A stretch of DNA of 64,000 nucleotides. Source: Chromatiales bacterium (GTDB lineage: Bacteria > Pseudomonadota > Gammaproteobacteria > Chromatiales > Chromatiaceae). Made by a program: the position numbers and the translations under genes. The notes under the pieces were generated by a model. The model saw nothing but the letters and a program-made list of their open reading frames with translations, was not told where the DNA came from and ran no database searches. The stretch is taken from positions 1 to 64,000 of the forward strand of contig JANTHJ010000005.1 of assembly GCA_024762475.1 (NCBI GenBank). Reading direction: 5' to 3'. Shown piece by piece: positions 36,103 through 62,982 of the stretch. The number at the start of each line of letters is the position of its first letter. Position 1 is the first letter of the stretch.

Positions 36103-36125
36103 GGTTTCACTCCCTGGTCAAAACG

Positions 36126-36202
36126 TGAGTGAGCGCCGTTGAAATCGTCTGTGGCATGGATCCGAGCCTGGCCCCTTCGGGTTGCAGCGCTCCTCGGATC
36201 GG
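36126..36202 (-). promoter_or_regulatory. SAH (S-adenosylhomocysteine) riboswitch
   Basis: Minus strand CCGATCCGAGGAGCGCTGCAACCCGAAGGGGCCAGGCTCGGATCC...AACGGCGCTCAC matches the conserved SAH aptamer core; directly upstream of ahcY. Confidence 0.93.
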
Positions 36203-59019: not shown

Positions 59020-59056
59020 AAAAAAATGACCCCGCGGCGGTCCATGCTGCGGGGTC
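59020..59056 (-). terminator. Intrinsic terminator of sRNA-2
   Basis: Minus strand GACCCCGC AGC ATGGACC GCC GCGGGGTC ATTTTTTT. Confidence 0.9.
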
Positions 59057-59143
59057 TGTGTCGCCCGATGCGGTACGGTTTGGCAAACCTTCATCCCTGG
59101 CCAGTCCCTGGCTCGGTCTCGTCCCTGACTTCCTGCTGGCGAC
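59020..59143 (-). ncRNA. Predicted CsrB/RsmY-type CsrA(RsmA)-sequestering sRNA (sRNA-2)
   Basis: GGA motifs on the minus strand at 59133-31, 59124-22, 59107-05, 59096-94 and 59043-41, four in CAGGA/CAGGGA context; hairpin GCCAG-GGA-CTGGC; terminator GACCCCGC...GCGGGGTCATTTTTTT with GGA in the loop; UAS/promoter shared with sRNA-1. Confidence 0.62.
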
Positions 59144-59199
59144 AGTGGAAGTGTGGGCCACGGAGATTGCCTTGCCATTAGGCCAAGGGCGCAATTGCT

Positions 59200-59217
59200 T
59201 GTAGGAATTATCTGAAC
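59200..59217 (-). promoter_or_regulatory. GacA/UvrY-like upstream activating element of sRNA-2
   Basis: Minus strand GTTCAG-ATAATT-CCTACA; 16/17 identity with the element upstream of sRNA-1. Confidence 0.55.
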
Positions 59218-59277: not shown

Positions 59278-59538
59278 TCACAGAGACTTGATCCGGGCGC
59301 TCAGGCGACTCTTGTGGCGCGCGGCCTTGTTCTTGTGGATCAGGCCCTTGCAGGCGAGGCGGTCGAGCAGTGGCACGGCCTTCTTGTAGGCCTCCTGGGC
59401 ACCTTCCTTGTCACCCGCAGCGATGGCGTTGATCGTCTTCTTGAGCTCAGTGCGCATCATGCTGCGACGGCTCGCATTTTGCTGACGGTGCTTTTCCGCC
59501 TGACGGGCGCGCTTGCGTGCTTGGGGGGAATTGGCCAC
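59278..59538 (-). CDS. rpsT: 30S ribosomal protein S20
   Basis: [36 protein letters not shown]. Confidence 0.97.
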
Positions 59539-59686: not shown

Positions 59687-61267
59687 ATGCCGGCCCGCAT
59701 CCCTGTTCCGGAGAACCGTCCCCTGTCCCTGTTCCGCTCTCTGTCCACGGTAGGTGTCTTCACCCTCGGCTCGCGCATTCTCGGCTTCGTGCGCGACCTG
59801 GTGTTGGCGCATGTGTTTGGCGCCAACGCCATGACCGACGCCTTCTTCGTGGCCTTCAAGATACCCAACTTCCTGCGCCGCCTGTTCGCGGAGGGCGCCT
59901 TTGCCACCGCCTTCGTGCCGGTGCTGACCGAGTACAAATCCAACCGGGATCCGCGTGAACTGCGCGAATTCATCGATCACGTGGCCGGGACCCTGGGGCT
60001 TGTCCTGCTGGTCGTGTCGCTGCTGGGGATGGTGGCTGCACCGCTGGTGGTGGGGCTGTTCGCCTTCGGCTGGGTCATGGACGGCGCGACCGAGAAGCTG
60101 GATCTGGCCACGCAGATGCTGCGCCTGACCTTTCCCTACCTGCTCTTCATCTCGTTGACTGCCTTCGCCGGCGGCATCATGAATGCGTGGAACCGCTTCG
60201 CGGTGCCGGCCTTTACCCCTGTGTTGCTCAACTTGTCATTGATCGGGTGTGCCCTATGGCTGGCGCCCCTGATGGAGCAGCCGGTGACGGCCCTGGCCTG
60301 GGGCGTATTGATCGCGGGTATCACCCAGTTCGTGTTCCAGCTGCCCTTTCTGCACCGCCTGGACCTGTTGCCGCGCCCGCGCCCTCACCTGGGCGATCCG
60401 GGCGTGCGACGGATTCTCAAACTCATGGTGCCCGCGCTTTTTGCGGTTTCGGTCACCCAGATCAATCTGCTATTGGACACGGTGCTCGCCTCTACGTTGG
60501 TCAGCGGCAGTATCTCCTGGCTCTATTATTCGGATCGCCTGATGGAGTTCCCCCTTGGTGTGCTGGGTGTGGGACTGGGCACCGTGCTTCTCCCCCGGCT
60601 GTCTCGCGAGCAGGCGGAACAGGATCCGGGCGAATTCGATCGCACCCTCGATTGGGGGCTGCGCATGGCGTTGGTCTTCGGCTTGCCCGCTGCGGTGGGG
60701 CTGGGAGTGCTGGCCGGGCCCATCATCAGCACCCTGTTCCAGTCGGAGGTGTTCACCCCTCATGATGTCGGCATGGCGCGGCTGAGTCTGATGGCCTACG
60801 CCAGCGGCCTGTTGGCATTCATCTTTATCAAGGTGCTTGCGCCCGGCTACTATGCCCGCCAGGACACCCGCACGCCGGTACGTATCGGCGTGATCGCCAT
60901 GGTGGCCAATATGGTCCTCAATCTGGTCCTGATCTTCCCCCTGAAACATGCCGGCCTGGCGCTGGCGACCAGCCTCGCGGCCTACCTGAACGCGTGGTTG
61001 CTGTGGCGGGGGTTGGTGAAGGCGGGGCGCTACACCGCGATGCAGGGCTGGTCGGGGCTTGTCGCGAAGGTGTTGCTTGCCTGCGCGGGTATGGCGCTGG
61101 TGCTGTCCTGGGGCGCCGGCGAGCTGGACAGCTGGTTCGAGGCGGGACACGGCAGTCGCGCCCTGCGTCTGGGCGGCTGGATTCTTGCTGGTGGCAGCGC
61201 CTACTTCGGGATACTCATTGCGACAGGGCTGCGGCCGGCCATGCTGCGCCGCTCAGGAGGTGTTTGA
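59687..61267 (+). CDS. murJ: Lipid II flippase MurJ
   Basis: LFRSLSTVGVFTLGSRILGFVRDLVLAHVFGANAMTDAFFVAFKIPNFLRRLFAEGAF; ATG at 59687. Confidence 0.96.
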   Translation: MPARIPVPENRPLSLFRSLSTVGVFTLGSRILGFVRDLVLAHVFGANAMTDAFFVAFKIPNFLRRLFAEGAFATAFVPVLTEYKSNRDPRELREFIDHVAGTLGLVLLVVSLLGMVAAPLVVGLFAFGWVMDGATEKLDLATQMLRLTFPYLLFISLTAFAGGIMNAWNRFAVPAFTPVLLNLSLIGCALWLAPLMEQPVTALAWGVLIAGITQFVFQLPFLHRLDLLPRPRPHLGDPGVRRILKLMVPALFAVSVTQINLLLDTVLASTLVSGSISWLYYSDRLMEFPLGVLGVGLGTVLLPRLSREQAEQDPGEFDRTLDWGLRMALVFGLPAAVGLGVLAGPIISTLFQSEVFTPHDVGMARLSLMAYASGLLAFIFIKVLAPGYYARQDTRTPVRIGVIAMVANMVLNLVLIFPLKHAGLALATSLAAYLNAWLLWRGLVKAGRYTAMQGWSGLVAKVLLACAGMALVLSWGAGELDSWFEAGHGSRALRLGGWILAGGSAYFGILIATGLRPAMLRRSGGV

Positions 61268-61746
61268 TGCCGGGGTTCCTGCTGGTCAGTCTGATCGTAT
61301 TGATCCTCGATCAACTCAGCAAGTGGTGGATACTGCAGCACTTCCACGAACACGAGGTGTTGGTGGTCTGGCCCGTCTTCAATCTCACCCTGGCCTTCAA
61401 CAAGGGGGCCGCCTTCAGTTTTCTGGCGGATGCGGGCGGCTGGCAGCACTATCTGTTCGTGGGGCTGGCGGTGTTGGTCTCGCTGTTCCTGGTGATCTGG
61501 CTATGGCGCCTGCCGAAAGGGCGTCTGCTCGAGGCCTGGGGGCTGGCGCTGATCCTGGGCGGTGCCCTGGGCAACCTCGTCGATCGCCTGTTGCGCGGCC
61601 AGGTGGTGGATTTCCTGCAGTGGCACTGGGAGGCGCACTACTTTCCTTCCTTCAACCTCGCGGATAGCGCCATTACGCTGGGTGTCGTGCTGCTGTTGCT
61701 GGATGCACTACGCGGAGAGTCGCGCAAACAGGGTAATGTCAGATAA
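61267..61746 (+). CDS. lspA: Lipoprotein signal peptidase
   Basis: LDQLSKWWIL; FNKGAAFSFLAD; GGALGNLVDRLLRGQVVDFL; FNLADSAI; ATG at 61267 overlaps the murJ stop. Confidence 0.95.
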   Translation: MPGFLLVSLIVLILDQLSKWWILQHFHEHEVLVVWPVFNLTLAFNKGAAFSFLADAGGWQHYLFVGLAVLVSLFLVIWLWRLPKGRLLEAWGLALILGGALGNLVDRLLRGQVVDFLQWHWEAHYFPSFNLADSAITLGVVLLLLDALRGESRKQGNVR

Positions 61747-61754
61747 ATCCTACA
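61737..61754 (+). promoter_or_regulatory. GacA/UvrY-like upstream activating element of sRNA-1
   Basis: TGTCAG-ATAAAT-CCTACA, 5/6 + 5/6 match to TGTAAG-N6-CTTACA; overlaps the lspA stop. Confidence 0.65.
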
Positions 61755-61805
61755 AATTGTATCGGCATTGTCCGATACCGCGGTCTAAAGTGGCTGGGCA
61801 TACTC

Positions 61806-61926
61806 TCTCCACCGCTGCAGGGATGGAGACCGGACAGGAGGTCCGGCAGCCAAGGAGGCACTCTTCAAAGGATTGAATAGACCGGCGGTGTAAGCCCGCT
61901 CCCACGGATGGGGGGCGGGCTTTTTT
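61806..61926 (+). ncRNA. Predicted CsrB/RsmZ-type CsrA(RsmA)-sequestering sRNA (sRNA-1)
   Basis: Hairpins TCTCCA-ccgctgcAGGGA-TGGAGA, CCGGAC-AGGAG-GTCCGG, GCC-AAGGA-GGC, TTCAA-AGGA-TTGAA, and terminator GCCCGC..CCCA-CGGA-TGGG..GCGGGC-TTTTTT; no coding potential. Confidence 0.75.
61894..61926 (+). terminator. Intrinsic terminator of sRNA-1 (GGA in loop)
   Basis: GCCCGC-tCCCA-CGGA-TGGGgg-GCGGGC-TTTTTT. Confidence 0.92.
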
Positions 61927-62016
61927 GGTGCCTGCCGTCCGCGTTGCCTCTGCTTTCTGAATCCACATTACCTTTCCACGATATAATCACGCGCTTGTTT
62001 CTATTGGGGGAGCGGC

Positions 62017-62982
62017 GTGTTACTGATTCGCGGCCAGCACAATCTGCGCGAGAACCACCGGGGTTGTGTCGCCACCATCGGTAACTTCGACGGTGTCCAC
62101 CTCGGCCACCAGGCGGTCTTCGAGGCGCTCAAGGAACGCGCCACGGAGTACCAGCTGCCCTCTCTGGTCATCACTTTCGAGCCGCAGCCGCTGGAGTATT
62201 TCCGTCCCGACGAGGCCCCGCCGCGCCTGATGCGGGCGCGGGAGAAGCTGGAATGCATCGAACGGGCCGGCATCGACCGCGTATTGTTGCTGAGATTCGA
62301 CCAGGATCTGGCCCTGATGACCGCGCAGGATTTCATCCGCGAATATCTGGTGGAGGCACTGGGGATACGTCATCTCTACGTCGGGGACGATTTTCGCTTC
62401 GGTCGCGACCGGCGGGGAGACGTCGAGCTGCTGCGTGATCAGGGCCAGCAGTTGGGGTTTCAGGTGGAAAGCCTGGAAACGGTGAGCGACACCTGCGGCC
62501 GGATCAGCAGTACGCGCATCCGTGAGGCGCTGGCGGCCGGTGATCTGGCTACCGCACGTTGCTGTCTGGGGCGTGATTTCAGCGTCAGTGGCCGGGTGGC
62601 GCACGGCCATCGACGCGGCAGGAGCATCGGCTTTCCGACCATGAACGTGGGGCTGGCGCGGCGTCGCAGCCCGATCCGGGGCGTGTTTGCGGTGCGGGTC
62701 GAAGGACTGGGCCCGGAGTTGCGCCCTGGTGTGGCCAATGTCGGGAACCGTCCGACCCTGGCGGGCGACGACCGTTTCCTGCTCGAGGTTCACTTGTTCG
62801 ACTTCGATCGCGAGGTCTATGGCGAGCAGGTGAAGGTCCATTTCATCCAGCGTATCCGGGACGAAAAGAAATTCGAATCATTCGACGCACTCCGTGAGCA
62901 GATCCAGCACGACGCAGAGCAGGCCAGTGCGGTACTGGCTCGTGACGTATCCCATTGCATTACCCATCAGGCGACACCGTGA
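62017..62982 (+). CDS. ribF: Bifunctional riboflavin kinase/FAD synthetase
   Basis: [53 protein letters not shown]. Confidence 0.96.

Follow-up and report, generated by a model that had tools for sequence, protein, structure and literature searches.

A predicted CsrA-sequestering small RNA between lspA and ribF, and a second, more widely conserved candidate family, in a gammaproteobacterial genome

A predicted RNA between lspA and ribF

The gap between lspA and ribF very probably encodes a stand-alone small RNA of about 116 nt, here called sRNA-A, that would be controlled by the Gac system and would titrate CsrA. Positions are those of the window, i.e. the whole 64,000-nt stretch of DNA analysed, unless another contig is named. 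The case is built on computed features: a conserved RNA-like structure, GGA loops, an upstream box at a set spacing, the protein partners, and paralogues. A first-pass annotation had listed five GGA-presenting hairpins between the two genes, the last of them a terminator, and had read them as an antagonist of CsrA/RsmA. All five hairpins, including the GGA-looping terminator, lie where it placed them, and the antagonist reading is supported, the GGA loops now being joined by a box at a fixed upstream distance in the homologues.

The source assembly is gammaproteobacterial, 3.0 Mb in size and 99.96% complete. The named relatives of its ribF include members of Sedimenticola, Candidatus Thiodiazotropha and Thiolapillus, as well as tubeworm symbionts. 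The gene order is obgE, proB, rpsT (minus strand), murJ, lspA, ribF and then a long ORF resembling ileS, where obgE and ileS were named by eye from the translation. In many Gammaproteobacteria lspA follows ileS; in this genus it is found between murJ and ribF (window 61267-61746).

61267-61746, plus strand: lspA, signal peptidase II (Pfam PF01252), adjoining sRNA-A upstream
61811-61926, plus strand: sRNA-A, predicted CsrA-sequestering RNA of about 116 nt, with a start predicted to a precision of a few nt
62017-62982, plus strand: ribF, riboflavin kinase/FAD synthetase (Pfam PF06574, PF01687), adjoining sRNA-A downstream

Sequence and fold of sRNA-A

61811-61817, plus strand: closing helix P1, 5' strand ACCGCTG, with covariation
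61830-61846, plus strand: hairpin CCGGAC[AGGAG]GTCCGG, kept in the fold
61849-61859, plus strand: hairpin GCC[AAGGA]GGC, kept in the fold
61864-61877, plus strand: hairpin TTCAA[AGGA]TTGAA, kept in the fold
61883-61889, plus strand: closing helix P1, 3' strand CGGCGGT, with covariation
61892-61926, plus strand: intrinsic terminator of sRNA-A, loop presenting CACGGA

Positions 61811-61926 fold with -51.6 kcal/mol (z -3.2), a value that 2 of 200 dinucleotide shuffles equalled or bettered. The RNA contains seven GGA, six of which are mostly unpaired, a number reached by 1 in 1000 dinucleotide shuffles; its five ANGGA were reached by 3 in 1000. When 116-nt stretches on both strands of the window were scanned every 4 nt, five ANGGA occurred only in stretches over sRNA-A, with the region of a second RNA, sRNA-B (see below), as runner-up. 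A G-rich intergenic stretch followed by an ordinary terminator might produce such a picture by chance, since the region is about 62% G+C and GGA is therefore common. Shuffled sequences rarely match it, however, and independent homologues, covariation and an upstream box would be very unlikely to coincide; conservation already contradicts this explanation, which we regard as extremely improbable.

Two parts of the fold are conserved and covary: the closing helix, in which 61811-61817 pairs with 61883-61889, and the terminator. In a MAFFT alignment (A1) 91% of the cells pair, compared with no more than 55% after sliding of the partner. In a model-fitted alignment, whose 17 rows comprise 16 homologues and one weak antisense row, the values are 93% and at most 52%, and 11 pairs differ on both sides, bearing in mind that fitted alignments lean towards structure. 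Between these two elements the position of individual GGA hairpins varies from one relative to another, and folds of single sequences pair some of the GGA; such movement would be usual for RNAs selected for their binding sites and not for one fold. In one relative (G146) the hairpin at 61830-61846 carries the compensatory pair of arms CCGAAC/GTTCGG.

The hairpin list of the first-pass annotation needs two corrections. Its three internal hairpins and terminator are kept in the fold, but its first hairpin (TCTCCA...TGGAGA) is not kept in relatives, and its 5' arm (61806-61811) falls between the -10-like element CATACT and the predicted RNA start. The list had also omitted the conserved, covarying closing helix. 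The GGA loops are retained in relatives, as that annotation had asked of them; in the terminator loop, CA-N-GGA is unchanged across 16 of 16 homologues.

The retention of these sites bears on a different reading, in which a stand-alone, GacA-controlled RNA acts mainly by base-pairing with mRNAs and not by binding CsrA. Pairing with mRNAs could be a further activity of a stand-alone, terminated RNA, and the sRNA RgsA, which depends on GacA and has one GGA, acts without titration (PMC2375449). sRNA-A, on the other hand, keeps several ANGGA while the intervening sequence drifts, up to and including the GGA in the terminator loop, and RgsA differs in having a single GGA and in lacking the GacA palindrome (PMC2375449). 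We consider base-pairing as the main mode of action highly unlikely.

Upstream box, predicted promoter and RNA start

61737-61754, plus strand: GacA/UvrY-type upstream activating box, palindrome TGTCAG-ATAAAT-CCTACA (TGTCAGATAAATCCTACA), assigned by sequence match
61759-61778: second inverted repeat GTATCGG-CATTGT-CCGATAC, perfect over 7 bp, between box and promoter, partly conserved
61798-61803, plus strand: -10-like element CATACT, in an aligned column in relatives
61980-61988, plus strand: conserved -10 of the ribF promoter, GATATAAT-like, 3' of the sRNA-A terminator

The box overlaps the 3' end of lspA, the stop codon of which ends at 61746. Compared with the published GacA/UvrY consensus TGTAAGN6CTTACA (PMC3171408, PMC11837529), TGTCAGATAAATCCTACA has one change in each half. 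Only three strict palindromic boxes occur in the 3.0-Mb genome: one at sRNA-A, one at its paralogue on contig C106, and the G+C-rich site TGTCGGCAAGGGCCGACA (C23:24476). As a control pattern, the box read backwards, is found five times per strand, the strict-box count alone is not enriched; it is the location of the boxes that is informative, two of the three falling exactly upstream of sRNA-A and its paralogue.

A wider comparison was made at 21 loci found by model R2 (the sRNA-B model) and lying outside its training set, with the exception of L179, which is the same locus as L071. A box with up to two mismatches is centred 63-64 nt before the RNA in 18 of these loci, some of which come from close relatives and are thus not independent cases, against a background of 0.4% of positions at the same loci. 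The box is outside both models, R1 and R2. It is degraded in G144 and G041. The second inverted repeat (61759-61778) is possibly the site of another regulator.

The -10-like CATACT is aligned with CATAAT, GATAAC, CACAAT, GATAAT and AATAAT in relatives, which places the start of sRNA-A, as judged from sequence, probably near 61810-61812. This would leave the TCTCCA arm of the earlier first hairpin at or upstream of the start, and probably untranscribed. A scan for a sigma-70 consensus site at sRNA-A returned none; the absence of a good -35 is expected of an activator-dependent promoter. The features at this locus that would fit a stand-alone gene are a terminator together with a conserved -10-like element and box.

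sRNA-A lies on the same strand as lspA and ribF, between the two, and its box overlaps the lspA stop codon. It might consequently be a cis element, either the 3' UTR of lspA or a leader or attenuator of ribF, in which GGA occurs by chance or for regulation in cis by CsrA. However, ribF has its own conserved -10 beyond the terminator in 7 of 8 members of the genus, including G129, where the lspA-ribF gap is without sRNA-A, and this argues against sRNA-A as a ribF leader. Moreover, homologues and paralogues at other locations (G000:C106, G147:C37 and downstream of rpsT) carry this box at an equal spacing. A cis element is, in our judgement, very unlikely.

Homologues and paralogues of sRNA-A

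Within the genus, sRNA-A is found in the lspA-ribF gap of 6 of 8 genomes (G000, which is the source genome, G146, G082, G109, G144 and G041). It is absent from this gap in the other two, G129 and G147 (L021, L022); both of these retain sRNA-B, and G147 has an sRNA-A-like gene elsewhere (C37). In other named assemblies, L081 and L085 (Ww536), a diverged copy occupies the same place, and in L094 a copy lies about 800 nt upstream of ribF.

Paralogues at other loci are present on G000:C106 and G147:C37. Model R1 detected further ones, outside its training set, in G109, G082, G146 (two) and G144.

G000:C106:5789-5902, minus strand (L039; L009:1510-1622): sRNA-A paralogue in the same genome, with box TGTCAGATTAATCCTACA

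The neighbours of this paralogue are genes for a PMT_2-family membrane protein and a sulfatase-family protein. A DNA search of 146 genomes of the family returned one relative of sRNA-A only, and covariance models were therefore needed; since calibration was short, R1 and R2 give rough E-values.

A second predicted RNA, sRNA-B

59020-59144, minus strand: sRNA-B, second predicted CsrA-sequestering RNA, downstream of rpsT, 2.7 kb from sRNA-A and on the opposite strand
59200-59217, minus strand: GacA/UvrY-type box GTTCAGATAATTCCTACA of sRNA-B, two mismatches
59278-59538, minus strand: rpsT, ribosomal protein S20 (Pfam PF01649), upstream neighbour of sRNA-B

sRNA-B has a closing helix, TGTCGCC...GGGCGACA, around CAGGGA repeats, and a terminator that loops out ATGGA. 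TGTCGCC lies 64 nt after the box GTTCAGATAATTCCTACA, and a terminator-like hairpin belonging to rpsT lies between rpsT and the RNA. In an alignment of the family (A3) 97% of the cells are paired; sliding lowers this to at most 54%. Model R2 also detects the sRNA-A of the window, which is outside its training set, with 40.9 bits (E 7e-7).

sRNA-B is more widely conserved than sRNA-A. R2 matches 122 of 210 genomes of the order, in 38 of 61 genera, a figure that may include a few genomes where it matches an sRNA-A copy only. Among the positive genomes are the symbionts of the tubeworms Lamellibrachia barhami and Escarpia laminata (G154, G120). Across 369 genomes drawn from the class R2 matched 12, several of them doubtful: the weak matches at L203 and L205-L209, poor in or devoid of GGA and lacking a box, look false, the match at L201 (box, -64) looks real, and that at L202, which is GGA-rich and without a box, may be.

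In one genus there are two to four copies of sRNA-B, some about 300 nt apart, much as rsmX is repeated in tandem in some Pseudomonas. Sets of three copies spaced by about 300-450 nt are found at G174:C4:27159-28029, G063:C7:1043879-1044754 and G185:C1:377334-378206.

Protein partners and proposed regulation

The genome encodes CsrA, as the first-pass annotation required (109.6 bits, cut-off 73). The protein has 60 residues, retains Leu4 and Arg44, and is very similar to E. coli CsrA. A UvrY/SirA/GacA homologue scores 272.7 bits, just under the curated cut-off of 280; downstream of its gene come a UDG-family gene and then uvrC. The best candidate for BarA/GacS is a kinase of 920 residues with the architecture sCache_4-HAMP-HisKA-HATPase-REC-Hpt. 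Its score of 564 bits is far below the cut-off of 890 and is nearly equalled by other hybrid kinases, and its orthology to BarA/GacS is uncertain.

Transcription of sRNA-A, its activation by UvrY, the binding of CsrA and all effects downstream are what we infer. In the proposed scheme, BarA/GacS-like signalling would phosphorylate the UvrY/GacA homologue, which would then bind the palindrome at 61737-61754 and switch sRNA-A on. The RNA would offer several (A)NGGA in hairpin loops, single strands and the terminator loop; CsrA dimers bound there would be drawn off their target mRNAs. The C106 paralogue and sRNA-B would add to the same pool, as do RsmX/Y/Z or CsrB/C elsewhere.

Relation to known Csr/Rsm RNAs

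RsmX, RsmY and RsmZ of Pseudomonas are about 110-120 nt long, with several ANGGA, an intrinsic terminator, a GacA box and multiple copies (PMC2375449, PMC7911923). sRNA-A resembles them in size, in its several ANGGA, in its terminator and upstream palindromic box, and in having several copies per genome. The box half-sites found here, by contrast, are mostly TGTCAG or TGTAGG/CCTACA, compared with TGTAAG/CTTACA for RsmX/Y/Z, and the long-range closing helix, as well as the GCCAACCAAGC element of sRNA-B, mark separate families. CsrB and CsrC of Escherichia coli and Shewanella, which act under BarA/UvrY to remove CsrA from its targets, are likewise stand-alone RNAs with repeated GGA. CsrB-type RNAs are, however, several times longer and have many more sites; the csrB of Shewanella measures about 420 nt and has the same kind of box upstream (PMC3171408).

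Neither sRNA-A nor sRNA-B is matched by any Rfam family at its threshold, and scans at gathering and relaxed thresholds gave no Csr/Rsm family above its cut-off. The sole family of this kind among the weak matches to sRNA-A was rsmX (RF02144), which scored 16.8 bits (cut-off 56; E 0.51); CsrB, CsrC, PrrB_RsmZ and RsmY matched neither RNA of the window at E up to 10, nor did they match the homologues tested. The homologues tested were also unmatched by Rfam families at threshold. The earlier label "CsrB/RsmZ-type" holds as a kind of function and fails as membership of the Rfam CsrB, RsmX, RsmY or RsmZ families. What sRNA-A shares with the functional class is multiple (A)NGGA in loops or single strands, an upstream GacA/UvrY box, and a genome that also encodes CsrA and a GacA/UvrY-type regulator. 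By function it would belong with RsmX/Y/Z and CsrB/C; its sequence and fold point to a new family of that kind.

With little sequence shared from one lineage to another and no protein product, Csr/Rsm RNAs are easily overlooked. The RNAs described here came to light through models combined with an upstream box. Rfam lacks a fitting model for the order concerned, and a literature search, with most subscription journals outside its coverage, returned no reports of Csr sRNAs for this lineage. The models allow the Gac/Csr switch to be placed in mostly unculturable bacteria, including the Lamellibrachia and Escarpia tubeworm symbionts. We suggest tentatively, and rate as somewhat less than probable, that A and B are related, undescribed families serving as the output of a Gac/Csr circuit shared across this order of sulfur-oxidising and symbiotic Gammaproteobacteria, with B belonging to the core of the lineage and with copy number (one to at least four, some in tandem) tuning the titration of CsrA. 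Were this so, such tuning might extend to the switch between the free-living and host-associated states in tubeworm symbionts.

Two other Rfam matches concern the window. PyrG_leader (26.3 bits, cut-off 65) was rejected for sRNA-A, as it covers no more than the terminator and the preceding stretch. A SAH riboswitch (RF01057; 61.7 bits, cut-off 37) is located at window 36124-36201 on the minus strand.
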